Assembly: GCF_964355755.1 (NCBI RefSeq)
Contig: NC_092673.1
Coordinates: forward strand, 11,105,001 to 11,169,000
DNA: 64,000 nucleotides
Direction of reading: 5' to 3'
From: Antedon mediterranea
Taxonomy: Eukaryota; Echinodermata; Crinoidea; Comatulida; Antedonidae
Shown here: one piece after another, positions 8,601-54,290 of the stretch
How the letters are laid out: every line of letters begins with the position of its first letter
How positions within the stretch are numbered: position 1 is the stretch's first letter
Translations under genes and position numbers: made by a program
The notes under the pieces: generated by a model
Told to the model about the DNA's origin: nothing
Database searches by the model: none
What the model saw: the letters and a program-made list of their open reading frames with translations, nothing else

Positions 8601-11600
8601 CTATTTACAAAATTTGTGTACAAAAGAATAGAGATTTTACCATGTAATTTGATATATCCCCCACACTGATAAGAAAGTGCTTATTTTCAACAAGCTCATG
8701 TAACACAAATAAAATCCCAAAAAATTATGACACATAGGGGAAACTATAGATTGATAATTATTGGAATGTATGATCAATAGAAATTTTTTGTATTGTCCGA
8801 GATTTATGTTGTGTTGATTGGTGTTCCGGGTTCAAATCTTGGTTGGGAGGAATTTTTCTCATTCTCATGACTTAATTTGGAAAATTAATATAAAATAGTT
8901 GCGACAAACTTCTAATTTGTGTATTCTTTGAAACATTTACGATCCCCGATTTTTATTTATATTGTTTTTACAGGTGTAATTAAAACATTAACCCCTTGTT
9001 ATTTATTCTGAATTCTTTCCCAGAATTTTGTTGCACATGTATCTCTAATTTTTGTGGACATAACATTGTATAACTTTTTCAGAAGATTGACCTTAAACTG
9101 TATGTAGACGTTAGAGTCGAGCAGCGTAAGTTACGCGCGATTTTATGAAATTTTATGGTTGCTCAAAAAATTATTTTTCAACAAAACTTTATGAAATTGT
9201 ATTTCATAATATGGAGCAACTTTTGACATGATAAAAATGGCGTGATATGCAAAAAAATTACGCGAGTATGCGTATCTGAAATTTCAAAATGTGCAAAATT
9301 AATTTCAATTTCAGGTCATTTTGAGCATTTTAAAATTTGATTAATTTGTTTGCGTTTTGCGCACGCGCTTGTGCGCACAGCTCGTACAAAGCATAGAAAA
9401 ATGGTTTTTGCAATTTATTTTTGCTTTCATACCACCTGTACAGTAGTAGATTTCATTCATTTTGATTAACTTTAATCACAAAATAAAGACGCACGTGAAC
9501 GTTAAACTTTAATAATCGTGTGCTAAAGAATGGGTAATTTAATGCAAATTTGTGCAAAAATATACCTATTTTTAATCAGTTATAGCGCCTCAGGATGGCT
9601 GGTTACCCAAATTTTTTTTAATATATTATGGAAGCTGATGAGTGAGATAATAATTGATGTAAAATTTGTACCTACCGGATGTTCTGACGTGGCCATATGG
9701 CCACTCAAAATTTTTAAATATAATTTATTTCGCTTTAGTACAAGTCATTTCACCCTAGATTTGAATATGTTCTTTCACAATCAATTCTCTTTCACATGCG
9801 TTAAACAAATTTATCCTACATCCTATTAAAAAATTTGAATAACGTGACCTACTTAATTTCGTCTATACAGTATATTTCAATGTGTTATAGCTCCTCAGAA
9901 TGAAAAGTGACCCGCATGATTAAAACTTAATATGGAAGCTGTGAAATTCTAGATATGAATTCCTATAAAATGTTGTCTATTTGGTGTCATGACTTCATCA
10001 TATGGCCAGTTGAATTCAAAAAGAAAGATTTTCATATCTTTCGTAAAATTCCACCGCATTTAAAGTAGCAAGCATCTCGCTTTTTCCCCGTCTAAAATTC
10101 TTTAAACTTTCATTAATGTAATTATCATAGGATATGGCATAATAATTGTTTGCGCGGATAACCCAAACTCGTCAAAGTGACGAGTTCAAATCTAGTTTCT
10201 ATTAGCAATTTCTTTACTTTTCGTCGATATAATACATGAAACAACCAAATATCTTACCTCTCCATTAATTGATAGCTTTCCAGTTTGACACATTATTTTC
10301 TCTAATTTCTTATCAATTTCTGAACTACAAAAAACGATTCATTGTAGATTTAAGAAATCAATATTAACAACAAATTCTCTTTAAAATTGTACTTTTGATA
10401 ATTTGTAACCTGGTTTTAATAATTGGTTAAGACTAAAACTGTGTGTAGTACTCATGTGCTTTCATAAAGTAGGCCTAACTACAAAATAGAGAAACCAAAT
10501 TAATTGATCAAAATCGATTATAAAATTTCAATCAGTGAAGGACCCATGAACTCCTTAAGGAAAGTTTATTAAAAATGTACTACAAACCTAGTAATTGATG
10601 GACGATGTACTGGTGGACCAGGTCGAGGGAAGTCCACATGGTGCCTGGGTCGGTTTCTGGTTGGTGTTGAAGCCTCAGGTAAACGAAGAGCTAAAAAAGT
10701 GCAAAAATTCTATATTATTTTCTAATGCACATTAGACTAGGCAATAAATTGATTTCAAGAGCATTTCCTTCTCTTTGTTTCATTCTAAATCTACTGTAGG
10801 TAGCAACATTTAGGCTATGTTCAGACTCATGACGTTACTAGAGAGGTCACATTACAAACCATAGAGAAAAAAATGAGGTGTTCAGACCTCAGACCCACTC
10901 ATGCGCCTTGAGCACTCTTGAGTGGTATGTGCGCTATAAAAATCCTGTTATTATTATTATTATAGCGTACGATTATCGTTACAACGGAAGTGCGTCATTC
11001 AGGTTGTTTCTAGTTGCATATTCTTGTGCTCTTACCCACATGTTTCATCATTGTTTCCACTGTATATAGGCCTAGATCTTAGCCCTACAAAATCAGGACA
11101 AAATTTGCCGTAAATAATAAAACCTCAGCATTTATTTTGTTTAAATATAGTTTCTATTGTTTTTATTTTGTAATAAAAAACATTTCCCCAAGGCTCTAAT
11201 TGTGTTGTTACGAAAATCTGGCGAAAAAAAACAGGCCTCCTGATAGATTGTATTGTGTGTAAAGCACATGGAGGGAAATTGTGATTAGTCTGTTGAAAAT
11301 AACCCTAACTTGGGGTGTCACGAAACCTAAGACCACGAAAGCTAAGACCCCCTAAGACCTAAGATCACGAAAGCTAAGACCCAAGACCTAAGATTACAAA
11401 TATTTATCTTTCGCACCTGCCTTGTATTTTAACTCAACATTTATTCTGAATACCACACCTTAGAATTAGCACTTTATGAAAAAGAATCACATAAAAAGTA
11501 ACAAATACATTTTTAAATTGATGATTTTACAGACGTTTTTCTCGCACACATACTGTTTGCGAATTTCGCATGACTAGCCTACACTACGTACTACAGTAAT

Positions 11601-23600: not shown

Positions 23601-26600
23601 GGCGCCTATAGGCTATGTATAGGTAGCCCTGTTGTGTTGGGAATACGTACGTAGTGAGCCTGCAGGTGGTGTGCTTGTCGCGTCCGTTACGGTCAATTAA
23701 ATGGAGCTCATACTTGACCTTGCGTAGGCCTAACATAAATCGGTCATTTCAACCTGAACGATGATTTGCTATACTCGAAATGAAATTTTACTTCTTTCTT
23801 CTACATGCGAGAGTAAAATACTGAACGATTTTTGCTGTAAAACCCTAATAGAAAATGGAATATTTCGTAACGGAAACGAACCTATTATATGGCAAGGAAA
23901 AGGTGTCATAAAAAACCGTAGACGTCACCGAGGACGTCGCGGTGGCCGTAAAATGAGGAAAACAATTGATACTTTGATCACACACCGTTCAGTTAGACTA
24001 AATAAATCAAAAAGCGTCAATCAATCTAACCTGATTCCAATCTCTACCTCAGCTAATATTAATAAGATTAATAATAATAAAGTGACGAAATACCAGTTTC
24101 CCACTTTTCTATTTACGAATCCATGTTCTATTTGTAATAAAATGGAAGACCTTCAGGTAACACTCGAACATAATAACATCCAAGTTTGTACACTTGCGGA
24201 AACATGGTTTAATGGAGACTATATTTGCAAGGTCAGTAACTATAACATTTTCTATAAGAGCCGCACAAATACCAGAGGAGGAGGTGTAGCAACCTACGTC
24301 CACAACAGTATTCCTTCTGATCACGTTGATTTTATTACTGTTCCAGACGAACTAGAATGTGTTTGGGTCAAATTACAGCCTTATAAGCTTCCCCGTGAAG
24401 TTTCTGAAATATATGTGTGTACCATTTATTGTAGCCCCAGCCAAAACAAAGACCATCAACGTGACCTCTTAAACCATCTTAGAAATTCGATTGACACTAT
24501 CCGTTCAAGAAGAAATTTAGCAAAAGTCATTATTGCTGGGGATTTCAACAGTGTTGATATCTCCTCTCTAATTAAACATGTCGTTGATTTGCACCAAGTT
24601 GTTAAGGATAAAACCAGAGGAGACAAAATTCTTGATCTCATAATTTCGGACCTTAAAGATTTTTATATGACTCCTACAATTCAAGCCCCACTTGGAAAAA
24701 GTGATCACAATGTCATTATTTGGAAACCGCTGAACTCAATTAAGTGTAATGATAAAATGGTTACAAAGATTTTTAAGCCTTGTACTGATTCGTCGATGAG
24801 AAGTTTCGGAAACTGGATTACCAAATTTGACTGGTCACAGGTCTATAATATAAAAGATGTAGATGATAAAGTGAACATAATGAACGATACCCTCACCTCC
24901 GCGTACAACAAGTTTTTTCCTACCAAACATTTGCGAGTGTATTCTACCGATAGACCTTGGATCACTCCATACATTAAAAAACTTATCAGGTATAGACAAA
25001 CTGCTTTTAGGAAGAAAAAACATGAACGTTACAAAACACTTAGAAATAAGGTAATATGGGAAATAAAGAAAGCTAAGGAGAAGTACTATCGTTATAAAGT
25101 AAAAATGCTTGAAGTGAGCAATCCCCGAAAATGGTACGACAAAGTGAAGCAGATTTGTGGTAAACGTAAAGACAAACCAAGAATTACATTTGATAATCCC
25201 TTACCGATCCCAGATTCCGTTGCCTCTAAACAAATTAATGAACACCTCGCAAAAATTTGTCGTGAACTGGATCCTCTCAAACTTGACGAATTACCTACAT
25301 ACCTCCCAGCTGAGAGTCCACCGCCACAAATTTTATGCTTTGAAGTTAAACAACAACTATTAAAAGTGCAGATTAATAAATCAGTTCCACCTGGAGAAAT
25401 TCCACCAGTTACAGTACCGGACAGAATTATTGCAGATTTTGAACGCATTCAACGCATTGTTAAAGTGTTGACAACGCGTTGAAACTGCGTTGTCCGTTGG
25501 CGTTGAAAGTGTTGAGTTCGTTGAACTGTTTATTCAACCAACACAATGTGTTGCGTTGAGTTTGCGTTGAAATAACGAACAATCGGATTCGTATGGTATT
25601 TACAGATTGCCAGTGTGTATTAGTAGTAGTAGTAATAGTATAAAATACAGTATTACAAATATTTAAGAAAACAAACATAATGTGTATTTTTCCGCGGAAA
25701 CCTAGCTTAATATATTACACTAGGCTAGGCCTACTACTAACGAGTAGGCCCCGTGTGTATATGAGCCGCGTCTGCCATCGCAGTTAAAAGTAGTGGTCAT
25801 GTCCTCAATTACTGTGTGCCTATATTAACTGGAGTATTAAATACCAAAGTTAAGGCGGCGGTGAATCTTGGAGGCTAGGTCACATCGTAATTAATTATTT
25901 CCAAACTAAAAACTTCGCAGTACTGTACTACATTTTTCTCGATTATTTATAAAAACAACGTAGCCTACACCCGCCGCCATGGAAGGCAACAATACACCAC
26001 CAACATAACGATCCAGCATGGTCGTCGTCTTTTTCACGCATGCTTTTCGTGACGTGAGGGACGAACTGATCGAAAGGTGAAGAGTTCATTCATTATGAAA
26101 TAACGCGTAATTAAAAGGGAAAAAATCGTTTAGTTTTATTATTAATATCCATAAATATATCATTATCATGTATTATATTATAAATTAATTATTGTAATGC
26201 CTAACGTAACCCATGCAGAGAAAAGCGTTAAATATAATAACCAAGAAATAGGAATGACCAATTTGATGACAATAGGCAATGTTAGGCGTTTTCTTTAAAA
26301 TCAAAACCTGTGCCATACCAAATTATTCACGCCAAGGTGTAACCCACAAATATTTGAATAACCAAACAATTCAGAATAAAGAACCACTTTATTCTGATGC
26401 AAGACAATATATTATTACAGGCGAGGTTTAGGCGTTTTCTCTTTAACATACTATTGTTTTGTTTCTAATATAATTATATTGGCCTCCTCCTGAAACTGTA
26501 TGAATGGGATGGGAGTTGCGAGAATATGCGAGCGAACAGCCAAGATTTTAATCAGTTTACAGCGTGATGCTTTTCAAAACGCGCAACGTTTTCAACGCGT

Positions 26601-29600
26601 TCAACGCTATGGGATTCAATTGTTTAACGTCGTCAATGAACGGTCAACGGGTTCAACACATTCAACACGCTCTATTGTTAACGTATTCAAAACGCTTTTT
26701 GTACTTAAAAATGTAATGTTGTTCGATTTATAAAGATTTAAATTGGTTCATGGGTGTCGGACACGTCACATTTTTTAGTTCTTTCAAATTACATTACAAC
26801 AAACAATGGCACAATTATAAAATAAAAACCAAAATAGAGAAACAATATTTTAACTTTATCTCTTGAATCTCGAACAGCTAAAAAATGTAGGCCTAAATAA
26901 AATTAATTACTTCGTCGTCATTAACGATCGTTAAATACGTCATAACACACGTGGTGTTTTTCTTGAGGAAACCAGGGTGGCGGCCTCGTGTGTCGATGTC
27001 AGTAATTTCCACGTTGTTTGATTTTACGACGTGAGATCGTGTTTTCCCCCGGAAGGCCTACAGTACAGTGTTAACTGTTAGACTTGGCATCGACCTTATT
27101 ATTCGATGTTTTCCTTCACTAAACACTGGGAAATATCACTGTGTGTTTTATTTGGTAACTGTCCGTTCAATACTTAAAAATATATCTAAGCTTCATATAT
27201 ATTTTATTTATATTAAAATATCTGGTAGTGACTGCCGATAGGTATTTTGCCTGTTGTTGTTACTGATCGTTCAGGCGTGCAATCGGCCAGTCTAGTGCTG
27301 CAGCAGCTAGCGTTGAAATAACTAATTGTTTACTTGACATGCTGATAATGACTTTCGTTGAATAAACAACTAAACGTTGAAAGCCGTTCAACGCAACGCA
27401 AACACAACGCAACGACAACGTGTTGAATGCGTTGGGATTTTTGCAATAATTCTGTCCTGTACTGTATCATCAAAGAATTTGCACCCGAAATAGCAGAACC
27501 CCTAACGCATATATTTAATTCTTCTTTGAAAGAAGGTATTGTACCCAAAGCTTGGAAACAAGCTACCGTTATACCGATACCAAAGAAAAAAGGTACAGTC
27601 AGTATAGAACAGATTAGACCGATCTCGCTTACGCCACTGTTTATCCGAATCTTTGAACATTTTCTAACTAAATGGTTAAATGAAGACCTATCTACCATTA
27701 TAGATAAACAGCAGTTTGGTAATGTCAAAGGTATCAGCACGAGTCATTACCTTATTGGACTCTTACACTACCTTCTTTCTGGACTGGAAAAACCTGGTCA
27801 CAAAGCACGAATTCTTGCTGTAGATTTCAGCAAAGCTTTCGACCGTATTAGTCACCAGGTACTAATCAGTAAGATGATATCAATTGGTGTCAGGAAATCT
27901 ATCATCCCGTGGTTCTGTAGCTTCCTAACTTGTAGAGAACAAAGAGTGCTCTATGGTAGCGCTATTTCCAGTTGGACATCTATATTTTGCGGTGTTCCTC
28001 AAGGAACGAAATTTGGCCCAAGCCTTTTTCAAGTAATGGTCAATGACTCGGCATCAGATTGCATTACAAGGTGGAAATTTGTCGACGATCTAACCTTCGC
28101 TGATATCTCAAAAAATAACTGTCAGGACTCTATTCAATCGTACTTTAGTAATTTAGAGGAATGGTGTAAAATAAATAACATGTCCCTTAACCCTAATAAG
28201 TGTAAATCAGTGGAGATTAACTTTTGCAAAACTCCTGGTTACTATGATTTACTGACTAATAATGGAGTCCAAGTTGAGACTGTTAAACAATTGAAGCTTT
28301 TAGGTGTAACTATCCAAGATAACCTTAAGTGGGATACACACATTGGTGAGATCGTTAGCAAGGCCAATAAAGCCATGCATATTGTGTCGGTACTTAAAAG
28401 GTTTGGTGCACCAGAAGATCAGTTAATTAAGATTTATAAATCTTTCATACGCCCCATAATTGAATATGCTTGTCCAACCTGGCACTCCTCCCTGACTTCC
28501 GAATTAAGCTTTGACCTGGAATCGGTCCAGAAGAGGTTTTTAAGAATTTTACTAGGGAGGAGGTACTATTCGTACACTGCAGCCCTAAAGAAATTTTCTC
28601 TTGATAGGCTCTGTGACCGTCGTCTCCAGCTTGTTCTGAAGTTTGGGAGGAGTGTCCATGAAAAATTTAGTAATATTATCCCCAATACCCGTGCTGAAGC
28701 GACAGGTAGATCTCTCAGAAACGCAAACAAAATATCCCAAATTAAATGTAGAACAGAAAGATTTAAGAAATCCACACTCCCATTCCTGATTAACAATGAC
28801 CTTATAGTGCAATAATATATATATATGAAATTCTTAATTTTGATAGGCCTACGGATAATTAATAATTTTACTCGCAGTTTTTAAATTTGTAATTGTATAT
28901 TCTTTATTTTTTTTTTTTATGAATTTATGTGTATATATATATTTTTATATTAGATGGTTGTGTAATTTTGCTCGTTTTTGATATATATCTTTGTAAATTT
29001 GTAATTGTATATTCTTTATTTTTTTTTTAATGCATTTTGTATATATATATATATATATTTTTATATTGGATGTTTGTGTAAATCTTGCTCGTTTTTTATA
29101 TATTTTTTATGTTTATGTTACTGGACGCAATTCAGTTTTGTACTGCCATGTCTTTGTTTTTAATAAACCAGAATAAATAAATAAAAAACGATTAGAACTC
29201 GATCAGGAACTTAAAGGAGACCTTATTGTAAATGGAATAATACACAAAGTAAATAATAGATTAAAATTTGGATACCGACAAATGTGGTTTATAGATAAGG
29301 ATAGTAAGAAAATTATGTCTGCTTTTTTACAGTATGTCTTTTTTACTATGCTCTGACTAGCTGGTATTTGGGATTTCAAATAATTCTAAGTTAAGTTACA
29401 ACGCTCTCAAAATAAAATAATAAGATTCATCTTAGGAGTGAATAACAGATATCATCTTGATTTTGTTTCATTGGGTATTTTAAATATTAATCTACGTGCT
29501 CAACAACAATCACCCTAAAAATTCACATCAAGTAGCAAAAACATTTTACTACAATGGAATAAAAGTTTGGAATGAATTACAAAATAGTCAATATTTATAA

Positions 29601-30936: not shown

Positions 30937-31210
30937 CTCGAAAAATTACAAGACTTACGCATGCGTACTGACCTTTAGAGTTTGATGATTATATTTTTAA
31001 CAACATATCCTCTCTCTAGTAGATCTCCTCAATAATCTCTAATATAACAACATAAACGTAAATGTAAATCAGTTATTTGTTATTTCATATCCACAAATCA
31101 TTACACAGTTAATATTTAACAATCGATATTTTTGTTATAGTTAAAGATAAGAAATGAGTATCATTTATTTTTTATTAATTATTATTACTGAACACAATTG
31201 CGGTTTGCTG
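30937..31210 (-). promoter_or_regulatory. 5' flank of MAP2K7: probable 5' UTR and core promoter
   Basis: This is the short interval between the MAP2K7 start codon and the 9.4-kb element. By position it must hold the 5' UTR and perhaps the transcription start, unless a non-coding exon lies further upstream. No clear TATA box was seen. The assignment is positional. Confidence 0.35.
31204..31210. repeat. Left target-site duplication TTTGCTG
   Basis: Identical to 40653-40659 and directly adjacent to the terminal GAGGTAT of the element. Confidence 0.8.
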
Positions 31211-31319
31211 GAGGTATCAGAGCGTCATTTCGCTCCATTTCGACGATCGAGCATTCTCTACTTCTACGGAGCGCCATTTATGCCTTTATTTACTTATATA
31301 GAAATTGTACTACGGTAGC

Positions 31320-32150
31320 TGCTCCCAGTGGACCAAATTTAGCACTAGTGGAGCGCAGTGATATAAAATAGAAATAAGTCACTGAATTTTAATATCTTTT
31401 CGTATGTTAATACACTGTGCTCAAGTGAACCCAATTTGGATCCAGTGGAGCACAGTGATATAAAATAGAAATAAGTCACTAAATTTTAATATCTTTTCGT
31501 ATACACTGTGCTCAAGTGGACACAATTTGGAGCCAAGGGAGCACAGTGATATAAAATAGAAAAAAGTCACTGAATTTTAATATCTTTTCGTATGTTAATA
31601 CACTGTGCTCAAGTGGACCCAATTTGGAGCCAGTGGAGCACAGTGATATAAAATAGAAAAAAGTCACTGAATTTTAATATCATTTCGTATGTTAATACAC
31701 TGTGCTCAAGTGGACCCAATTTGGCGAAAGGAGAGCACAGTGATATAAAATATAGAAATAATTGTCATTGAATGTTAATATATTTTCGTATGTTAATACA
31801 CTGTGCTCAAGTGGACCTAATTTGGCGCCAGTGGAGCACAGTGATATAAAATATGGAAAAAGTCACTGAATTTTAATATCTTTTCGTATTTAATATACAC
31901 TATGCTCAAGTGGACCCGATTTGGAGCCAGGGGAGCACTGTGATATAAAATAGAAATAAGTCACTGAATTTTAATATCTTTTCGTATGTTAATACACTGT
32001 GCTTACGTGGACCCAATTTGGCGTGCGCGCCAGTGAGCACAGTAATATAAAATAGAAAAAAGTCACTAAATTTTAATATCTTTTCGTATGTTAATACACT
32101 GTGCTCAAGTGTGGACCCAATTTGGCACCAATGGGAGCACAGGGAAATAG
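31320..32150 (+). repeat. Left array of 97-bp hairpin units (about 8 copies)
   Basis: Each unit begins CACTGTGCTCAAGTGGACCC, continues AATTTGGAGCCAGTGGAGCA, then CAGTGATATAAAATAGAAA, a segment with AAGTCACTGAATTTTAATAT and CTTTTCGTATGTTAATA. Within every unit CACTGTGCTC...GAGCACAGTG form an inverted repeat of at least 10 bp around a short loop. Copies start near 31409, 31504, 31600, 31697, 31798, 31898, 31994 and 32096. The minus-strand ORF 32166-31906 is a shadow of the array. Confidence 0.93.
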
Positions 32151-35000
32151 TCACATACAAAAACATCGAGAAAAAATACTTCTGGAATTTAAAAATATTT
32201 CAAACTTGGTATATATGTTCAATATCGGTTACTCCATCCGTAAACCAAAAGAAAAAATAGTTTCAAGCCACAATTCGATTTTTTCCCTGTAAATTGAGCA
32301 ACTTAAATAAACAAGGCCAACAGCCATTAAGTCGCGTGCTACAATGCATAGTGATACCGGACCGACAGACAGACCGACAGACCGACAGACAGACCGACAG
32401 AAAGACCGACAGACCGACAGACCGACAGACAGACAGACAGACCGACCAACCGACATAGTGAACTATACTGACCGAAATTACTGAACATGTTTAAAAATGT
32501 TGAAATGTTTAAAAACATTTATATTTTTTTAATTTACACGTGCGTAGCCTGTCACTTTTGACGTGCTCGTATAACGTAATTTCGAGTTGAAAAGTAAGTC
32601 AAGAAAACAGAAATCGGGCAAAAAGAGTGCGCAATAACATTTAACGCACAGTGCGCGCGCAAAAATATGCGCACTCATGGCAATTTTGTAAACGCTTAAA
32701 ATTGCCTGAAACGTACTCTTATTTCATCGAAAATAAATTTTGACAATTTTAAGCGCGCGTACGCATGCGTTACATGCGCTACGCACGTAATTGTATTGCC
32801 ATATGATGATTTATGCCCTGAAATTTATGAGTACCAAATTTTATTTAATTGTGATTCATGGTTGTGAAGATATGATTACAAACGTGATTTCGTTAAATCG
32901 TGCGTAGACCGCGTAATTTTTTATTGCACACCGTGAAAAACATAACCACATTGATTCCTGGCCATAAGGAATATACTGTGAAAAATTGACCTAGCTAGAT
33001 TAAACTGATACCAAGATAAGGTCAGAAAGCGATAAAACGCATAGTGATACCGGACCGACAGACAGACAGACCGACCAACCGACCGACATAGTGAACTATA
33101 GAGTCGCTTCCACGCGACTAAAAATATACCAAGAAATATATATTGAAATCAAGGAGTATTTTTTTTTTTACAAAAGAAATGTTCGTATGTTAATACACTG
33201 TGCTCCAGTGGATCCAATTTGGCGCCAGTGGAGCACAGGGAAATAGTCACATACAAAAACTTCTAGAAAAAATATTTATCGAATTCAAAAATATTTCAAA
33301 CTTGGTATATAAGTTCAATATCGGTTACTCCATCCGTAATGCAAAAGAAAAATTAGTTTCAAGCCACATTAGTGATTTTAATAACTTGCGTTTGTCTAAG
33401 ATAAATACTTATGAAAGAACATACAATTCCAACACATTTTTTTAAACTTTAGCGATTAAAAAAAAGACATATGTTAAAAATATGAATTATGTAGTAACAT
33501 ATTGAACGTGTAGTAACCTATTGAACGTATACTACCAAATTTCAAATGTGTAGGACAATTATTTTATGACGATCAAAATTTAAAGTTTAAAAAATGTGTT
33601 GGAATTCTATGTTCTATCATAAATATACATTTTAAACGAACGAAAATTACTAAAATCACTGATATGGCTTGAAACTAATTTTTCTTTTGCATTACGGATG
33701 GAGTAACCGATATTGAACTTATATACCAAGTTTGAAATATTTTGGAAATCCAGAAGTATTTTTTCTTGATGTTTTTGTATGTGACTATTTCCCTGTGCTC
33801 CACTGGCGCCAAATTGGATCCACTGGAGCACAGTCATGTATTAACATACGAACATTTCTTTTGTAAAAAAAAATACTCCTTGATTTCAATATATATTTCT
33901 TGGTATATTTTTAATGTAAGTTGCTCAATTTACAGAGAAAAAATCGAATTCCTAACCGGTTTTTAGTCGCGTGGAAGCGAATCTATAGTTCACTATGTCG
34001 GTCGGTCGGTCTGTCGGTCTGTCGGTCCGGTATCACTATGCGTTTTATCGCTTTCTGACCTTATCTTGATATCAGTTTAATCTAGCTAGGTCAATTTTTC
34101 ACAGTATATTCCTTATGGCCAGGAATCGATGTGGTTATGTTTTCACGGTGCGCAATACAAAATTACGCGGTCTACGCACGATTTAACGAAATCACGTTTG
34201 TAATCATATCTTCACAACCATGAATCACAATTAAATAAAATTTGGCACTCATAAATTTCAGGGCATGAATCATCATATGGCAATACAATTACGTGCGTAG
34301 CGCATGTAACGCATGCGTACGCGCGCTTAAAATTTTCAAAATTTATTTTCTATGAAATAAGAGTACGTTTCAGGCAATTTTAAGCGTTTACAAAATTGCC
34401 ATGAGTGCGCATATTTTTGGGCGCGCACTGCGCGTTAAATGTTATTGCGCACTCTTTTTGCCCGATTTCTGTTTTCTTGACTTACTTTTCAACTTTCGAA
34501 ATTACGTTATACGAGCACGTCAAAAGTGACAGGCTACGCACGTGTAAATTAAAAAAATATAAATGTTTTTAAACATTTCAACATTTTTAAACATGTTCAG
34601 TAATTTCGGTCAGTATAGTTCACTATGTCGGTCGGTCGGTCTGTCTTTCTGTCGGTCTGTCTGTCGGTCTGTCGGTCTGTCTGTCGGTCCGGTATCACTA
34701 TGCATTGTAGCACGCGATTTAATGGCTGTTGGCCTTGTTTTTTGTAAAAATCATTATTAGAGTTTAACATATGTGTCGGAATTGTATGTTTTTTCGTAAG
34801 TAGTATCTTAAGCAAACGCAAGTTATTAAAATCACTGACGTGGCTTGAAACTATTTTTTCTTTTGGTTTACGGATGGAGTAACCGATATTGAACAAATAT
34901 ACCAAGTTTGAAATATTTTTAAATTCCAGAAGTATTTTTTCTCGATGTTTGTGTATGTGACTATTTCCCTGTGCTCCCATTGGTGCCAAATTGGGTCCAC
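32150..35000. mobile_element. 2.9-kb foldback (palindrome) inside the left TIR
   Basis: Sequence from about 32150 to 33480 recurs inverted from 35000 to 33590, with the centre near 33520. Matching blocks include GGAGCACAGGGAAATAGTCA/complement, GTTACTCCATCCGTAA, GACAGACCGACAGACCGACA runs (32360-32455 and 34620-34695; shorter at 33055 and 34000) and TTACATGCGCTACGCACGTA. Identity looks very high over long stretches, implying recent origin or gene conversion. ORFs at 32101, 32229, 33200, 33607, 33742, 34563 and 34597 all mirror this repeat and are not genes. The flanking 97-bp units switch orientation across it. Confidence 0.9.
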
Positions 35001-35210
35001 TTGAGCACAGTGTATTGAAATACGAAAAGATATTATAATTTAGTGACTTTTTTCTATTTTATACCACTGTGTGCTCACTGGCGCGCGCGCCAAATTGGGT
35101 CCACGTGAGACAGTGTATTAACATACGAAAAGATATTAAAATTCAGTGACTTATTTCTATTTTATATCACTGTGCTCCGCTGGCGCCAAATTAGGTCCAC
35201 TTTAGTCCAG
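35000..35210 (-). repeat. Inverted 97-bp units right of the foldback
   Basis: Two to three units run here in the orientation opposite to 31320-32150 (CACTTGAGCACAGTGTATT...CACTGTGCTC). This is the arrangement expected if the foldback arose by inverted duplication or inversion between hairpin units of the left arm. Confidence 0.85.
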
Positions 35211-35214
35211 TCAA

Positions 35215-35995
35215 TCTATGACAAAAAAGGGCGTAACCCAAAACAAATTGCAATAGTTTCCAAACCTTTTTTATTTGATTCTATAAGCATCTGGAAAGAT
35301 CATTTCCAAAATCTACCAAAATCGGTTCAGTGGAACATACTTTTTAAGGGGTTTTAAGGTCATAGGGGTCAAATTACACATTTTTCTATTTTGAAAACTA
35401 CTAGGCGTAGCATGTTGATTTTGGTGTCAAACTATTCAGAAGACCCATATTTATATGTACTCTAATGAAACCTTTTTACCAAAAATTACAGGAAAGCATG
35501 TTTTTGACCTTTGATCTATTTTATTGTATATTTTCGTATATTCGTATCTTAGTAACCAGTGGGCGTAGATGAGCGTTATTTGCGTCAAACTACTCAGAAG
35601 GTCAATGTTTATATTAGTTCTAATGGAAAAGATCCGTGTAAAATGACCGGAAGTCATTATTTTGACCTTTGACACATATTCATTATTTTAGATTTCTCAG
35701 TAAATACATTTTTTATATCTCAGTAACCACTAAGCACAACTTCGTCAATTTTGTGTCAAAAGATTCAGAAGACTCATATTTATATTCACTATAATGAAAA
35801 AGTTTTTTTTTAAATGGATAGAAATTATGTTTTTGACCTTTGACCTATTATACCAGTATATTTGTTTATATTTACTCAGACTAATGAAAACAAATGCAAA
35901 TGTACAATATAACCGAAAATCATTATTTTGACCGTTAACATTTTCTAGTCGTGTCATGAATAAACCTCGAGTCTCGAGTATAACATTTTAAATTT
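35215..35995. repeat. Inner part of the left TIR
   Basis: The sequence from AGTCCAGTCAATCTATGAC onward is the inverted counterpart of 39060-39930. Shared blocks include AACAAATTGCAATAGTTTCC, ACCAAAATCGGTTCAGTGGA and CAGAAGACCCATATTTATAT. It consists of about 150-bp half-repeats carrying TCTAATGAAA, TTTTGACCTTTGACC and GTAACCACTGGGCGTA. No gene; ORFs at 35172, 35451 and 35745 are shadows. Confidence 0.88.
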
Positions 35996-36584
35996 GACCA
36001 AATAATAAGTGCGGCGATCTGACAGACGTTGGGCTGGAATATCAACTGATCTTGCCATAGAACAGTGTCTTATGCGTAGCATAAAAACAAGAGGAGGTCT
36101 AACAAGAGGGCGAGGATTAACAGAAATTCAACGACTTGTCTGGGTGGGTCCTTTCAACTCCAGTCTGCGCCAAGATCAATCATTCAATGCAAGAGTTCAC
36201 TAACGTTTCGTATACTACCAGTGAACAACATAAAGAAACAACATATGCCAGAAAGATGAAGGACCTCAGTGATGTACAAGACATATCAAGGTATCTGACA
36301 CTGCGAAATCCATTCAATACAGACAGTACAAAATTACTGACAAACATTGCAACTGGAGTGACGGCACATATCAATGTAGACTGTCACAATGCCAAGCATG
36401 TAGGTCAACAAATTGTGCAATCAATGACAAACCAAAAGGTCGCCGACTACACATTTCGGAAAAAGAGCCAATCCATTACAATGAACTCTAAAAGCGCATT
36501 GAAGATAAAAGATGATGTGGTCAATGTAGATCCTTTACTTCTATTTGAACGACTTGTAACTGCCGGCACAAGATGCCATAATGT

Positions 36585-37821
36585 CAGGGGCGCAGCCAGT
36601 GCGGGGGTCACGGGGGTCCTGACCCCCCCTTTTTTTTAGAAAAAATAAATAAAAACATGAGACAACAATACAGATCAAATGATCCTGGAGATACTGTGGA
36701 AGATTACTACCGAGCAGTATTACCAAATCAACTTCTTGATCATTTACAAACCGAGTTAAAAACCCGTTTTTCTACCGATAACAGGCCATGCTTTAAAATA
36801 TTTGGCGTAGCACCCGAGTCTATCGTGAAGTGTAATGTTGAAGAAGTCTTCAAGGAACTTGAATTTGGTACGATGATCTGCCAAGACACGAACATCTTCA
36901 TTCCGAGCTTCAGTGATGGAAGCGACTGTGTAAAATTAGCGGATCCAGATGTGTTCCCGAATGTGCGTGCGCTTCTTCTAATCGCGTAGGCCTATGCCCG
37001 TAACGTCTGCTGAAGCTGAGCGGAGTTTTTCGACTTTGTGGAGAACGAAAACCTGTTTGCGAAATCACATGTCTTATGAGCAGCTTTCGGGATTGTGCCT
37101 CATGAACATACACTTTAACATGAACATTAATACAGAGAATGTCATTCGCGAATTCTGTCTCCAAGCCAAGAAGAATGTTCCAAACTTATGATGCATCACG
37201 CGATGTCTAGAGCGCCGTTATAGTAACTAACGTAAAATGTATGATAATAATTTAGAAGTTAGTTATTACAATTATGTATAAGCTATCACCTATACTATAC
37301 ATTCGAACAAAAAAGTTATATTTTTAAACAAAATATTGTATGTACTGGGTATGATAAGCGTCTCACATACACACACGGAGCCAAGATAGCTTCTTGGACT
37401 TGCACAGTGTATGAACTCTAACCTTACGGTTCTCATTTAATAATATCACTCCATGTTCAAATAATTCCTCCTCTGAGTTTACAGCCTCTCTACACAAATC
37501 AACAAACAAGCAAGAAAAAAAGTGTTTGTCTGTGGCAGCCTGGAATATAAAAATGTTCTGTAATGAAAATGAGAGTTGTTTTTTGTTTTCTTTGTTTCAG
37601 TTTATTAGTGTTAACATTGTCATATTTGTGTGTGCGTAAACCGATTCAAATGATCTAGATTGCGCTAGACCGCCAAAGCTTCCAGGGGCCTTCGCCCCCT
37701 GGACCCCAACCGGGGGCCCTTGGCGGCCCCCTGGCCCCCAGCCCATGGTTGCTCGCTTCGCTCGCAAAATACTCACATATTTGGTTGACCCTCCTTTAAT
37801 TCTTTGCTGGCTGCGTCCCTG
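36585..37821. mobile_element. hAT element inserted in the nuclease gene
   Basis: The left end CAGGGGCGCAGCCAGTGCGG and the right end GGCTGGCTGCGTCCCTG (complement CAGGGACGCAGCC) are terminal inverted repeats. TAATGT flanks both sides (36579-36584 and 37822-37827): 6 bp, shorter than the usual 8. The right end carries the G+C-rich GGGGGCC and GCTCGCTTCGCTCGC motifs typical of these elements. The interior holds the C-terminal end of a hAT transposase. It is 1.24 kb, so most of the transposase is deleted. Dropping it and one TAATGT restores the nuclease frame at this point (CHNV...SDIF). Confidence 0.88.
36657..37191 (+). pseudogene. hAT transposase C-terminal remnant (dimerisation domain)
   Basis: A first frame (36657-36989) ends with a segment containing FPNVRALLLIA, and a second frame (from 36994) opens with MPVTSAEAERSFSTLWRTKT and continues LRNHMSYEQLSGLCLMNIHF. 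The pattern PVTSAEAERSFSTL is the signature of the hAT C-terminal dimerisation region, which lies next to the last catalytic residue of the RNase H fold. A frameshift near 36985 separates the two halves, and the zinc finger and most of the catalytic domain are absent. Confidence 0.9.
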
Positions 37822-39059
37822 TAATGTATCAGATATATTTAGATTGTTTGAATCACCAGATATGATGAGGTCTGCAAATAAAGCTAAGTTTAGCTGATAG
37901 TTTGTGGTCAACAGCAATCGAGGTTGCTCCAGAACCTCCTGATCAAATGCAGTACGTCTTAGATGGAGGAGCACTACTTCATAAAATTCCATGGACAAGA
38001 GGGGCTTCATGGGGTGACATATGAGAGTATACACTAAATATGTTTCTCACAAATATGGAAAACCCATTGTTGTTTTTGATGGGTACGATAACTCACTAAG
38101 TACAAAAGACTGTACACATACAAGGAGAAGTGGTGGTGGTGGTGTAGCTGTACACTTTGACCAATCTATGACCTTACAAACCAAAAGAGAAGAATTTCTG
38201 TCAAACGTTCAAAACAAACAAAGATTCATTAAGATTTTGGAAAATAGTCTTGAAAAAGAAGGTTGTACTGTTCACCACGCAGAAGCTGACGCTGACTATC
38301 TTGTGTCGAAGATGGCTCTGTTCTGTGCAGAACAAATAGGCACGGTTGTCATCGCAGATGATACAGATATCCTGGTCCTCCTTATCCACCATGGTGGTCA
38401 CACCAAACATAATGTATGGTTCAAGCCAAACCAAAGGAAAGAAACTAAAAAGGTGCAACGATGTTGGAACATTGCAGCAACAAGACTTGACCTTGGCAGC
38501 GATGTTTGTAAATATATCCTATTTTGTCACGCGTTCCTTGGATGTGACACGACATCGCGATTTTTTGGTATTGGGAAAATCAAAGCAGTAACTAAAGTAA
38601 GAAGTGACTGTTTCTTTTCTGAACAAGCGAAAGTGTTTATGACTTTTAAAGCAAACAGACAGGAGGTAATTGCAGCGGGTAATAACGCCATTTTGTCTTT
38701 GTATGGTAGCAGTGATAATGAAAACCTAGATGAATTGAGGTTTCGTAAATTTCATGAAAAGACTAGATGCAGTACTAAAGCAGTTCATCCACGTTCTTTA
38801 CCCCCAACGGCATCAGCGGCAAAGTATCATAGTCTAAGGGTGTACCAACAAGTTCAAGTTTGGCTTGGAAATGAAGAAAATGTACCTCCAGATAAATATG
38901 GATGGAAGATCAGCCAAGGCAGGATGATACCATATTTGACGGACAACCCCCCAGCACCACAATCGGTCCTACAAATCATAAAATGCAAATGCAAAACAGG
39001 CTGCTATAATATGAAATGCAGCTGTAGGAACAATGGATTAGATTTTCTGTAAAAATAGT

Positions 39060-39930
39060 TTCATTAGAGTAAATAAATATGGTTCTTCTGAATTGTTTAA
39101 CACAAAAGTTACGCTTATTGGTCATCGCGATACAAAAAATATATTTAGTGAGATATGAAATAAAGAATATGTTAACGGTCAAAACGATGACTTCCGGTCA
39201 TAATACACAACACTTTTTCATTAGAGTGAATATAAACATAGACCTTTTGAATATTTTGACACAAAAAATGCTCATCTACGCCCATTGGTTACAAAGATAT
39301 GAATATACCAATATAATAGGTCAAAGGTCAAAAGAGTAGTTTCCGGTCATTTTTTTGTAAAAAGTTTTATTAGAGTGAATATAAATAAGGGTCTTCTGAA
39401 TTGATTAACACAAAAATTACGAAGTTACGCCTATTGGTCACCGAGATACAAAAAATTTAATTAGTGAAATAATATAAAATAATGAATATATGTCAAAGGT
39501 CAAAATGATGTCGTCTGGTCATAATACACAAAACGTTTTCATTAGAGTGAATATAAACATAGACCTTCTGGGTATTTTGACACCAAAAACGCTTGTTTAC
39601 GCCCAGTGGTTACCGAGATATGAATATGCCAAAATAATAGGTTAAAGGTCAAAAACATGGATTCCGGTCATTTTTTATAAAAAACTTTCATTAGAGTGAA
39701 TATAAATATGGGTCTTCTGAATTGTTTGACACCAAAATTACCAAGTTCGGCCAAGCGGTTACTGAGATATACAAATATAGAATTTGACCCTCATGACCTC
39801 TTGACCCCTTAAAAAAGTATGTTCCACTGAACCGATTTTGGTAGATTTTGGAAATGTTTCTTCCAGGAACATATAGAATCAAATAAAAAAGGTTCGGAAA
39901 CTATTGCAATTTGTTTTGGGTCTATCGGTA
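39060..39930. repeat. Inner part of the right TIR with tandem sub-repeats
   Basis: About five alternating sub-repeats of roughly 150 bp, each with TTTCATTAGAGTGAATATAA, CTTCTGAATT, a TTACGCCTATTGGTYACCGA-like block and GGTCAAAGGTCAAAA. Inverted relative to 35215-35995. The 86-codon ORF at 39079 lies within it and is not a gene. Confidence 0.85.
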
Positions 39931-39934
39931 GATT

Positions 39935-40545
39935 GACTGGACTACTTGAGCACAGTGTATTAACATACGAAAAGATGTTAACATTCAGTGACTAATATTT
40001 CTATTTTATATCACTGTGCTCCACTGGCTCCAAATTGGGTTCACTTGAGCACAGTGTATAAACATACGAAAAGATATTAAAATTCAGTGACTTTTTTCTA
40101 TTTTATATCACTGTCCTCCACTGGCTCCAAATTGGGTCCACTTGAGCACAGTGTATTAACATACGAAAAGATATTAAAATTCAGTGACTTTTTTCTATTT
40201 TATATCACTGTGCTCCCCTGGCTCCAAATTGGGTCCACTTGATCACAGTGTATTAACATACGAAAAGATATTCAAATTCAGTGACTTTTTTCTATTTTAT
40301 ATCACTGTGCTCCCCTGCCTCCAAATTGGGTCCACTTGAGCACAGTGTATTAACATACGAAAAGATACTAAAAATCATTGACTTATTTCTATTTTATATA
40401 AATGTGCTCTCCTGGCTCCAAATTGGGTCCACTTGAGCAGTGTTATTAACATACGAAAAGATATTAAAATTCAGTGACTTATTTCTATTTTATATCACTG
40501 TGCTCCACCGGTGCTAAGTTTGGTCCACTGGAGCAGTTACCGTAG
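39935..40545 (-). repeat. Right array of 97-bp hairpin units (6-7 copies)
   Basis: Units read CACTTGAGCACAGTGTATTA...CACTGTGCTCCACTGGCTCC in the orientation expected for the right inverted repeat. Copies repeat about every 97 bp from 39945 to 40530, followed by the unique terminal segment to 40652. Confidence 0.93.
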
Positions 40546-40652
40546 TACTATTTCTAATTCGGAAGTAAATAAAGGCATAAATGGCGCTCCGTAGAAGTAA
40601 ATAGTGAAGTTGAGAATGCTCGATCGTCGAAATGACGCTCTGAATATACCTC

Positions 40653-40659
40653 TTTGCTG
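40653..40659. repeat. Right target-site duplication TTTGCTG
   Basis: Directly follows the terminal ATACCTC of the 9.4-kb element and matches 31204-31210 exactly. Confidence 0.8.
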
Positions 40660-41560: not shown

Positions 41561-42191
41561 GAATAGCACGGGCTATACCATTTTACTGTGGGTATTTGCG
41601 CTCAAATTTATAACAAAATAACGATTTCCTGATTGCTGCCCTCTATATATTTTATTCAATGGATTTTTAACTGTATTAAAAGATAGCGTCACTATCTATT
41701 TGCTGTATTGTATAAACATAACTCGTCTTTTCTTTTTTTTTACTCGGGGTACCCGAGTCTAGGACTTACTCATCTTCTCCTCTTTGTCCATCTGGACACT
41801 ATTGAGTAAAAAGTGCGATTTATAAAGTACTACTCCTCCCTTATTCGTTGTAATATTGAGCTGGGATTTGGCATGAATATACTACAGGGACATGTCCTCA
41901 AAGCTATAGAGCCATATTTTTAAATTTCAAACCGGATGCAGCCATATCACGTCTCAAAGATGGTACCGTATAGCCGTATTTGGTGGAGGTTATTGATGTG
42001 TATGTGACGTTACATCCCGTCATATGAAAGCAGAGGGCGCTATGTAATGAAGACGTACAGTTACTGAGCTCCGTCAAAGCTAAAACTTATCGAACTCCCA
42101 AAAGTAAGTTAAAGGATGAAATAAACTGAACGTAAGTTTTAAACAGCTTCTACAATCAAATAAAAGTAAAATAAGAATTCGATTGTAAAAA

Positions 42192-43007
42192 ATGAGTGCT
42201 ACTAGAGCGAAATCTAAACAAATATCTGAAACTACTGAGGCAACGCCTATGCCACGTCAGCTTAAAGTTCCCGCGACTACCGACTTGAGGACTGACACGT
42301 CATCTTCTGAAATAAAGGCCCTGCGAAAAGATCTAAAAGAGATGTTTGTTGATATTAATAAAAGAATCGAAGATGGAATATCGTCGATCAAATCCAATCA
42401 ACAAGTACTAATAGAAAGAATAACAAAAGTGGAAGAAACACAACGTATTATGGACCAGTCATTGGAATATTACACAACATCCACTACGGAAACCCAAGCG
42501 AGTGTAAGTAGATTAAATACACGTATTGACAACATTGAAACAGAACTGAAGGAGAAAAATAAGCAAATTAGTAACCTAGAAGTGGATATTCATAGAATGG
42601 AAAGATATTCAAGAGGATTTAATTTACGATTTGGAGGAATAAATGAAGATGAGAACGAAAATACACTAGATAAACTAAATACACTTATAAGCGATAAACT
42701 ACACTTGAAGGATATTAACATTGAAAACGCCCATAGAACCGGTAAACAGACCAGAGGAGACCAAAAACGTAGGCAAATAATTGCTAAATTTATCTATAGG
42801 CCAGAACGAAACGAGGTTCTTAAGAAGGTGAAGTCACTGAAAAATAAAGATTTTTATGCAATGGAGGACCTTACAGCATCAGATGCCAAGAAGAAACGTG
42901 AGTACCGAGACATAATGTTGAAAGCATACAATGAAGGAAGACATCCTGTATTTAGAAATGGATCATTATATATAGATGGGAGACTATACCGTGAACCTAC
43001 AAAGTGA
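42192..43007 (+). CDS. LINE ORF1 protein: coiled coil, RRM-like and C-terminal domain
   Basis: 271 codons, ATG at 42192, no internal stop. Residues about 40-135 are heptad-rich (KALRKDLKEMFVDINKRIED, then VSRLNTRIDNIETELKEKNK), a probable coiled coil for trimerisation. MERYSRGFNLRFGGI (about 135-150) opens an RRM-like domain, and RQIIAKFIYRPERNEVLKKV followed by MEDLT and KKREYRDIMLKAYNEGR resemble the C-terminal domain of L1-type ORF1p (Transposase_22 family). Such proteins bind LINE RNA as a nucleic-acid chaperone. It lies 340 bp upstream of ORF2 on the same strand. Domain calls rest on motif pattern only. Confidence 0.85.
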   Translation: MSATRAKSKQISETTEATPMPRQLKVPATTDLRTDTSSSEIKALRKDLKEMFVDINKRIEDGISSIKSNQQVLIERITKVEETQRIMDQSLEYYTTSTTETQASVSRLNTRIDNIETELKEKNKQISNLEVDIHRMERYSRGFNLRFGGINEDENENTLDKLNTLISDKLHLKDINIENAHRTGKQTRGDQKRRQIIAKFIYRPERNEVLKKVKSLKNKDFYAMEDLTASDAKKKREYRDIMLKAYNEGRHPVFRNGSLYIDGRLYREPTK

Positions 43008-43346
43008 CCAGACCACACTCTGTTAGTAAGCAACACACTTATTTAACATGAGATGGTATTTATGTAATTTGGACAAAATACTATCCATGTCTTGTTATTA
43101 TACACAGCCCCACATTGCTGTGAACTGTTGCATACAGTGCATTCATATAAGTTGGGGTTGTTTATAAAATTGTATATAAATTTGTATTACTACATTCATT
43201 AATAAGGGGTCACGGTAAAATAAAAAAAAATTTATGACGGGGAGCTAATGTACAGATATAGCAAATAAGGTTATATTTATTATCAAATATTTCTTTGTCA
43301 TTAGGCCCTATAATTAACTGATATTTATTTATATTAACGAAATTAT

Positions 43347-46270
43347 ATGTTTTCAATTCTAAATATTGATAATTTTAATTATGAAGACGAAAATACAACC
43401 GCATTTAACTATAAGGAAAACTATTACTTTAGTATTGATACATTTAAATCCACGTTCAGTCAAACTTCAACTAATAGTTTTTCTATGTTTGCATTAAACT
43501 GTAGAAGTATTGTTAACAAATTTGAAGAATTTAAAAATTATGTATCCTCTCTCGATTTTGAATTTAATGTAATAGGACTTACTGAAACTTGGCTTTCAAG
43601 CAAATATCACCTTGGTTTATATACACTTCAAAACTATACACCTATCTTTAAAAACAGAGAAACCCAGACAGGGGGATGTGTAGCATTGTACATACACTCA
43701 AATATATCATATCAAATAAGAAATGACTTGTCTGCTATGATAAACGAGGGAGAGTGCATTATAATTGAATTAAAAAATAATGATAAATCAATTATATGTG
43801 GAATAATTTACAGGCCCCCTAAAGCCCATATTCCAACATTTAATAATCAACTTAGTGAATTAATGCACATGATAAACAATGAAAATAAAAAGGCATACCT
43901 TATGGGTGACTTTAACCTAGATCTACAAAAATATAACTGTGACAATAATGTTCAAACTCACGTAGACAACATGCTAACAGAATCTTTCATTCCACTAGTT
44001 AATAAACCCACCCGAATCACAAAAGATACCGCAACAGTAATTGACAATATTTATACAAATTATCAGGAATTCCAAAATATTAACACAGGGATATTAGTTA
44101 ACGACATATCTGACCACTTTGCAGTTTTCTGCATGGATGATTCAGAAAATTATTCATTACCACGATCAGAAAAATTTATAATAAAAAGAAGCTATACTGA
44201 TCAACAAAAACGGCAATTTAGACTTGAATTACAGGGCTATGATTGGCAATATGTAACTAGCATTGAAAATTCGAATGAATCATATAAATGTTTCTCAGAT
44301 TCTTTAAAAACAATGATAGATAAGCATTTCCCACTAAAAAGAGTTAGATTAAAAGTAGATACAATTAAATCCCCGTGGATAACATATGGAATTCAAAAAT
44401 CTCTTTGTACCAAAAATAAATTATACATCAAATATAAACAGAAACCAACAGATATAAATAAATCTAAATATAAGAAATATAAGAATAAGTTAACATCAAT
44501 AATAAGAGAAAGGAAAACTATTTATTACAAAAATGAATTTGAAAAGCACAAGAGTAATATAAAGAAAACATTGGGTGTCATAAACTCATTATTAGGTAGG
44601 AAGAAATATCAAGACATGCCTCAAAAAATGAAAATCAACTCCCATCAACTTAATGACCCAACATCCATAGCCAATGCGTTTAACACATACTTTATAAATA
44701 TAGGTGACCAAATGACAGGTGATGATAACCGTAATAGTAACACCGAATATAAAATACAACATGACATTTTGAATTCAATGTTTTTTAGAGCTGTATCCGA
44801 GTCCGATATCATTAAATACATTAATGACTTAAATGTAAATAAGTCAAGTGGTTGTGATGACATTGGTACCATTTATATAAAAAATAACTCAGATATACTG
44901 GCTAAACCGTTATCTCATATAATCAATGTATCCCTTCAATCGGGTGTATTTCCTTGTCAACTAAAAATTGCTAAAACAATTCCTGTGTATAAAAAAGGAG
45001 CAAGAGAGAACATAGAAAATTATAGACCGATATCGATATTACCATGTATATCTAAGGTATTTGAAAGGGTCGTATATGACCAAACAATCGCTTTTTTGTG
45101 TAAATATGATATGTTACATGAATCTCAATATGGATTCAGGGCAGGTCATTCAACTAACCACGCCCTCCTACAAGTCCTTGATAAAATAACAACAGCCGTT
45201 GACAACAAGCAATTTATGATTGGCGTATTTTTGGATTTATCCAAGGCGTTCGATTCGATAGATCATGAATTATTGCTCACAAAATTGCCCCATTATGGAA
45301 TAAGAGGCGTGGTTCTTGATTGGTACCGAAGCTACCTTAGAGAAAGACAACAATTCATACAAATTGGGAAGTGTCAGTCTGTAACCAAAATAATAAAACA
45401 AGGCGTTCCACAAGGGTCAATCCTTGGACCCCTGCTGTTTTTGATTTTCATAAATGACATATGTTTTCTGTAAGTAATGTCGTTGATTTAATAATGTTTG
45501 CAGATGATACGAATATGTTTTTACAACACAATGATATCGTCACTGCCTTTACAATAATGACAAATGAACTAAATAAAATTGAGAAATGGTGTAAAACTAA
45601 TAGATTAACTATTAATACAACCAAGACTACGTATATGTTATTTAGTGGAAAGAATACCAACATTGACACATCCCAATTTGTACTTTCAATAAATAGAGTT
45701 TCAATAGATAGAGTACCATATACTAAATTTCTCGGTGTCATCATTGATGAGAAACTGAACTTTAGACACCATACAAATGCAGTTTCTTGTAAAGCATCCT
45801 CAATAATTGGTGCCATGTGTCATATAAAAAAATTAGTATCTACTGAAGTGTTACTTACCATATACAAGACACTTATATTACCAGTGTTGACATATGGTAT
45901 TATTGTATGGGGTGCGGGAAACAAAGACAATTTGGATCGCCTTCTATTGCTTCAGAAAAAAGCTCTTAGGATCATTTGTAAGGTAGACTTTCATCATCCC
46001 TCTTCTCAGCTCTTTGTGAAAACGGGCACATTTAATATATTTGATTTGTATAAAAACAGTGTTTTAAATTTTATGTTTAAATACCAAAAAGGACAACTTC
46101 CAAAATGTTTTAATTCTTTATTCAGTTTATTTGATAATTATCATACATATAACACTCGAAATAAAGACAATTATTGTATAAAATTAAAATCAACTAATAT
46201 GGGTCAGCAAAGTATAGCATATAGAGGACCTAAGCTATGGAATCAACTTATAAGAAATATAAGAGAGTGA
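43347..46270 (+). pseudogene. LINE ORF2: endonuclease-reverse transcriptase with one frameshift
   Basis: The first frame (43347-45473, 708 codons) has the endonuclease motifs LTETWL (about 78-83), GDFNLDL (192-198), PTRIT and DISDHF (258-263), then RT motifs GCDDIGT, YRPISILPCISKVFERVV, FLDLSKAFDSIDHELL and GVPQGSILGPLLFLIFIND. The frame stops just after NDICFL. The catalytic segment LIMFADDTNMF continues in another frame (45461-46270, 269 codons), with FLGVIIDEKLNF and the tail QSIAYRGPKLWNQLIRNI. A single-base indel near 45455-45473 explains the split. The combined length is about 975 codons, normal for L2/CR1 ORF2. The copy is dead only by this lesion unless others are hidden. Confidence 0.9.
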
Positions 46271-53169: not shown

Positions 53170-54290
53170 CAACATTTTTATTGAATGAAATTATTAGTGT
53201 TCATCACATGGAACTAAAGTAAACTCAAACAAGATAAAATCAAATATATTTATTAGCGATTGAATGATGCTGTTTATTAAAAAACACGCTCTCATGGAAA
53301 ATCACAGAAATTACGTAACTGTACCTTTATTTTATTGAATGGAATTATTAGTGTTCCATCACATGGAACTAAAGTAAAGTCAAACATAATTCTGATAAAT
53401 TCATGTGAAGTGCTTAAAATCAGCAAATATAACACATTTTAATATTATAACAAATGTTAGTGATGTTAATAAATTACAAAGTTAGTGATCATAAATAGAA
53501 TTCTTTTACATTTCTATAAAATGTTGTTATTATACAACATATAAATGTAAATTTTTCGAACCATTTCACAAAAACAACCATTTTACGGTCAATAGTTTTT
53601 GAGATTATAGAAATATGTACTACCAGTACAGGTCAAAGGTCAATAAAAATATTTCGGGTCATTTTCTTGAAAAAGTTCTTATTAGACTGAATAGAAACAT
53701 ATACCTTCAGATTAATTTGAGCCCTATTTAAAGTTTGTCCAACTATTAGTTACGGAGTTATATGATATGTAGGTCAAAGGTCAAATTTGTCAAAAATCAT
53801 ACTTCCAGCCATTTTTGGACAAACTTTTCCATTAGAACGAATATTAATATGCATCTTCCAAATAATTTGACACTAAAATTATTTCATTTAATCTAAACGT
53901 TGCAAAGATATGATCATTTTGTTTTCAATGGGTCAAAACAATCAAATTGAGGTCAGAGGTCAAAGATGAATTTTAGAAATTTGACAACATGGGTTTTTAT
54001 AACCAGCATGATTCAAATATTCATAAAACACAATGTTTACACTTTCCCCATGATCTGCACACGAAAATATATAGGGATCTGGACTATCAAGTCTATTGAA
54101 GCATTTGCTTGCTGTTTAATAAAAAAAAAACACGCTCTCGGTGAAAATCACAGAAATTACGTAACTGTGATCCTTTAGGCCTACATTTATTTTTATTGAA
54201 TGAAATAATGAATGCTTATCACATGGAACTAAAGTAAACTTACACAAGATAAAATCAAGTTTATTTGTAATTGAATGCTGTTTTATTAAA
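53170..54290. repeat. Three-copy direct repeat with AGGTCAAAGGTCA blocks between
   Basis: A segment containing CACATGGAACTAAAGTAAAC recurs near 53207, 53360 and 54221, and AACACGCTCTC...AAAATCACAGAAATTACGTAACTG recurs at 53283 and 54130. Between them (53560-53960) lie degenerate sub-repeats with AGGTCAAAGGTCA at 53630-53642 and 53771-53783 and TTATTAGACTGAATAGAAAC-like text, clearly related to the inner TIR of the 9.4-kb element. Confidence 0.8.

Follow-up and report, generated by a model that had tools for sequence, protein, structure and literature searches.

Organisation of the locus

The stretch analysed here, hereafter the window, comprises 64,000 nt of the Antedon mediterranea genome, and the feature under study occupies positions 31211-40652. 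It contains three nested DNA transposons, all of known kinds: the hairpin-bearing arms and the 7-bp target duplication belong to one transposon and a nuclease gene belongs to another. The feature very probably arose through nested insertions, with an internally deleted Academ element, itself split by a hAT element, lying inside a gene-less foldback element. The first-pass annotation had read the region as one 9.4-kb transposon with inverted arms of about 1.6 kb. Its termini, flanking repeat, arrays and gene stand; its arms are not those of one element, as the array is split by the CTT-flanked segment 35203-39944, and a 1.24-kb hAT remnant had been missed. The features are:

31204..31210, + strand: 7-bp target duplication flanking the outer element on the left, TTTGCTG
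31211..33524, + strand: outer left arm, comprising the tip (31211-31326), a 97-bp hairpin array (31327-32149) and one half of the palindrome
33525..35202, − strand: first part of the outer right arm, ending with array units (34985-35202)
35200-35202 and 39945-39947: target duplication CTT of the inner element
35203..39944, + strand: inner Academ-type element, internally deleted, with ends TAGTCCAGTCAATC / GATTGACTGGACTA
36009..39052, + strand: transposase-nuclease gene remnant, about residues 859-1468 of the relative P0239 (1,498 aa)
36009-36146, 36145-36585, 37881-38021 and 38030-39043: pieces of the gene remnant, with frameshifts and stops
36585..37821, + strand: hAT remnant within the gene, 1.24 kb, with CAGGG...CCCTG ends and TAATGT on both sides
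39945..40652, − strand: remainder of the outer right arm, continuing the units that end at 35202, with array units to 40535 and then the tip
40653..40659, + strand: 7-bp target duplication flanking the outer element on the right, TTTGCTG

The outer element begins with GAGGTAT at 31211, ends with ATACCTC at 40652 and is flanked by an exact repeat. Identical 7-mers occurred in 355 of 2,000,000 random pairs drawn from the window, and given a tolerance of 5 bases at each border, such a match was present at 301 of 20,000 random junctions. The 97-bp arrays comprise 8.4 copies at 31327-32149 and 6.1 copies at 39944-40535, and all three array stretches tested fold into hairpins better than their shuffles (z of –3.72, –3.51 and –2.60); the outer tip folds no better than shuffles (z of –0.55). 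A 2.4-kb inverted repeat, 32306-34743 matched to itself around an approximate centre of 33525, is the real middle of this element. Without the insertion 35203-39944, the outer element measures ~4.7 kb and forms a near-symmetric inverted repeat. GACA/GACC-type microsatellites occupy mirror positions of its palindrome (32360-32447, 33996-34027 and 34626-34689).

The inner element interrupts the outer array, which runs over 34985-35202 and resumes at 39945-40535. Joining the bases on either side of 35203-39944, with CTT counted once, restores an array junction that is found intact at 34994, 40135 and 40329. The segment has long inverted repeats of its own (35236-35862 and 39302-39921, 79.7% identical). 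The TAGTCCAGTCAATC start and GATTGACTGGACTA end are common to the window copy and three further copies in the genome, C1, C10 and C8:19.5 Mb, and all four inner copies with both ends carry short target duplications: CTT in the window and AAC, TAT and TATA in the others, respectively. The gene thus lies in an element with its own ends and its own duplication, and the outer ends, contrary to what had been proposed, are not its borders. Diverged copies of the inner arm repeat (66–86% identical) also occur outside the inner element, at 53630-53881.

The gene remnant is decayed and carries the GCDTTS motif. It retains the C-terminal part, with the last catalytic E, an XPG/FEN-like nuclease and a CXC tail; the DDE core is missing apart from the E segment. 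A Pfam search of the window's own gene pieces gave no match above cut-off. The hAT identity of 36585-37821 is given by a Dimer_Tnp_hAT domain (E=1e-7).

Genomic copies of the two families

On the single-element reading, the gene belongs to a 9.4-kb transposon with 7-bp duplications, which would represent an Academ-like lineage whose duplication length is new. In its favour, the gene does lie between matching outer ends within the window, and its relatives have a P-like DDE fold, the P superfamily including Galileo with its 7-bp duplications and long arms. The two families were followed separately through the same genome. A left-tip search listed at least 41 matches (314 candidates, 40 scored), and 20 stretches around listed matches were taken (L009-L028). 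Facing tip pairs were present in 12, of which 11 were scored for duplications; L027 was excluded for its degenerate left terminus. The 7-bp duplication recurs, as the first-pass annotation had anticipated, being exact in six of the 11 scored copies (L010, L014, L015, L018, L025 and L026; one letter is changed in the right terminus of L015). A tblastn search with four family proteins found the nuclease gene in none of 28 outer-tip loci (L001-L028), and among the 11 outer pairs only L026 contains frames of at least 150 aa. The 7-bp ends thus mark a family without a gene-bearing member among the copies examined. The open frame in L026 (1,053 aa, from element position 3229) resembles a retrotransposon insertion by eye. 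Outer tips stand back to back in L019 (~190-430), and the start of the outer tip is doubled in L024 (~9730-9900).

The nuclease search yielded 122 matches, and grouping of those with at least 85% identity gave 21 loci, including the window. In all nine other gene loci with flanks (L030-L038) the gene is followed by the inner right arm (95–99% identity), and the 94-600 bases examined beyond the inner end contain no outer array. Wider flanks, taken at C1, C10 and C8:19.5 Mb, hold no outer tip. Gene copies outside the outer ends are what the first-pass annotation had named as grounds for abandoning its proposal. Together with the inner element's own duplications, the flanks of the gene loci refute a single-element 7-bp Academ lineage for this subfamily, and we regard that reading as extremely improbable. 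The nested arrangement is retained below.

The inner left tip lies within 8 kb upstream at 19 of the 21 gene loci. Eight of these 19 have a compact form, in which 1,546-1,590 bp separate the tip from the nuclease start and leave no room for DDE coding; the distance is 2,815-2,816 bp in three (window, C1 and C10) and 2,153-5,213 bp in the remaining eight. The left arm adjoins the window's truncated gene start in all five other loci that span this junction (L032, L033, L035, L040 and L042), and sampled stretches of two longer inner copies (L049 and L050) contained no DDE coding.

Several observations weigh against the nested arrangement or its assignment to known groups. The 7-bp repeat is inexact, displaced or missing in five of the 11 scored outer copies: the flanks agree at six of seven positions in L017 and, by eye, at about five of seven in L009, the repeat is displaced in L013 by two extra bases on the left, and L016 and L022 have no 7-bp repeat at their outer ends. 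At two of the 21 gene loci the 8 kb searched contain no inner left tip. A lone 3-bp duplication is weak evidence, and the case for the inner element rests on four copies with differing duplications. For the DDE part of the full-length relatives, the top match by Foldseek alone is RAG1 (E=0.015), ahead of the P element, and the Academ assignment is made by published descriptions, not by Academ reference sequences.

Movement of the inner element

The hAT remnant of the window is present in C1 and C10 at 99.7–99.8% identity, with different flanks and duplications. Such likeness, together with a nuclease region that is 100% identical in protein over 341 residues, could indicate segmental duplications instead of transpositions. 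However, similarity ends at TAGTCC...GGACTA, duplications and flanking bases differ at each site (CTT, AAC and TAT), and no flanking DNA is shared past the ends in the bases compared; we therefore hold segmental duplication to be very improbable. Since the split copy occurs at C1 and C10 with other duplications, the hAT split is older than the insertion in the window. The window's Academ copy evidently moved in trans, since it moved although both catalytic D residues are missing and its gene is split; we infer a donor enzyme. L036, L037, L038 and L050 have one more insertion in common within the gene (97–98% alike among L036-L038; 66 bases match in L050), which is another sign of broken copies moving.

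One copy, at C8:19505180, has a 613-aa open frame that keeps the nuclease. Across ten copies the ratio of nonsynonymous to synonymous differences per site (pN/pS) in the nuclease region is 0.46 when pooled, with pairwise values of 0.18-1.06 outside the near-identical trio of the window, L030 and L031. The pooled value is not proof of present nuclease function, as there are too few changes for pN/pS to separate it from ancestral constraint. That the inner subfamily is a stable 'nuclease-only' form of Academ, keeping an open nuclease frame without the DDE half because it is useful, for example for end processing in trans, rather than the mere amplification of one deletion copy, seems unlikely.

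The sequence of events was very probably as follows. A gene-less foldback element of ~4.7 kb first inserted and duplicated 7 bp, presumably mobilised in trans by a transposase not seen here. A non-autonomous Academ element (35203-39944), its gene already split by the hAT element on arrival at 35203, then entered the right-arm array of the foldback element and duplicated 3 bp. The locus offers a clear case of trans mobilisation of internally deleted transposon copies.

Full-length relatives and classification

Of 105 family proteins longer than 1,200 aa, 79 measure 1,450-1,550 aa. Full-length relatives are single proteins in which a DDE domain resembling that of the P element is joined to an XPG/FEN-like nuclease, with a CXC tail. 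The earlier proposal that DNA transposons encode the invertebrate GCDTTS proteins holds. The expected pairing of nuclease and DDE transposase was found in these relatives and not at the 28 outer-tip loci, which hold no gene. The predicted fold of the DDE part matches several DDE transposases, and D, D, D, E catalytic candidates are present in 88 of 88 rows. A 1,247-aa relative in the same genome is 26% identical to P0239 over residues 353-1473; its two copies, almost identical over the compared stretches, have TAGGCCATCGGG (TAG...CTA) ends and the duplications CCA and ACA. In the DDE half of P0256, residues 629-925 match Pfam DUF6589 (PF20231) just below threshold (26.4 bits, the cut-off being 27); this is a hint only, by which DUF6589 could represent a domain found in the transposases of related elements. 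NCBIfam gave no match for three family proteins, scans of viral and prokaryotic contigs for the protein or for DNA words revealed no match, and neither 'GCDTTS' nor 'DUF6589' occurred in the literature searched.

The nuclease of Academ transposons is of XPG type. Target duplications are described as 3 or 4 bp for AcademX and 9 or 10 bp for AcademH, in relation to the encoded nuclease or helicase (PMC10045372), and a 3-bp duplication is given for Academ elsewhere (PMC5199201). The inner element is likely an Academ transposon of the AcademX type: it shows 3-4 bp duplications itself (four of four copies, and two of two in the 1,247-aa relative), and the full-length relatives supply the remaining features, namely an XPG-type nuclease joined to a transposase and, by predicted fold, a DDE core. 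The one-protein fusion seen in these relatives agrees with the transposase and nuclease of AcademX. The window copy, in contrast, keeps the nuclease part only; the DDE half is absent from it and from its near relatives alike, and their long inverted repeats measure ~650-740 bp. A separate, undescribed superfamily combining a P-like DDE domain with a flap nuclease is quite unlikely, as the nuclease and the 3-4 bp duplications fit the AcademX description (PMC10045372), and the 100 curated Academ families reported for bivalves, with a mean length of 5,565 bp, suit the abundance of these proteins in molluscs (PMC10294476).

Academ was therefore the right lead in the first-pass annotation, and the misfit of duplication length noted there came from merging two elements. 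The odd combination of an XPG nuclease with a 7-bp duplication was the product of reading two nested elements as one; the puzzle is gone because the 7-bp ends and the gene sit on separate elements, which removes an apparent exception among XPG-nuclease transposons. The assignment also gives a likely identity to very common unnamed invertebrate proteins ('Tesmin/TSO1-like CXC', '5'-3' exonuclease'). As a structural hypothesis for a little-studied superfamily, Academ would be built from a P-like DDE domain and a flap nuclease. In a full-length element the DDE domain would cut and join the ends, staggered by 3-4 bp, and the nuclease fused to it, of flap or junction type, would process DNA structures at ends or gaps.

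Comparison with known transposons

The overall architecture of the outer element is reminiscent of Galileo and other foldback elements. Galileo is described with long inverted arms, internal tandem repeats and 7-bp duplications (PMC4168063). Both share long repeat-bearing arms and 7-bp duplications (the window and six of 11 scored copies). However, no transposase gene was found in the outer copies examined, and their tips are GAGGTATATTC. A Mutator/Foldback family is also reported from nematodes (PMC3169594).

When the gene element is compared with the P superfamily, its P-like fold, read together with the Galileo-like anatomy around it, made this superfamily a candidate. Since the 7-bp ends are those of the outer element, the P superfamily was rejected as the home of the gene element. 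A C/DxxH signature between the second D and E is described for the superfamily (PMC9587614). In the inner family the corresponding region has CxxH in 24 of 80 rows (22 of 88 in another row set), SxxH in 31 of 80 and DxxH in none of 80, so the signature is not fixed, and the duplications are 3-4 bp rather than 7-8 bp. Unlike P-element transposase, the inner family also has a C-terminal nuclease. This nuclease differs from FEN1, EXO1 and XPG in that it belongs to a transposon protein whose tail is cysteine-rich and of CXC type.

Elsewhere in the window, long open frames at 23758-28815 and 42189-46270 resemble non-LTR retrotransposon endonuclease/reverse-transcriptase by eye.
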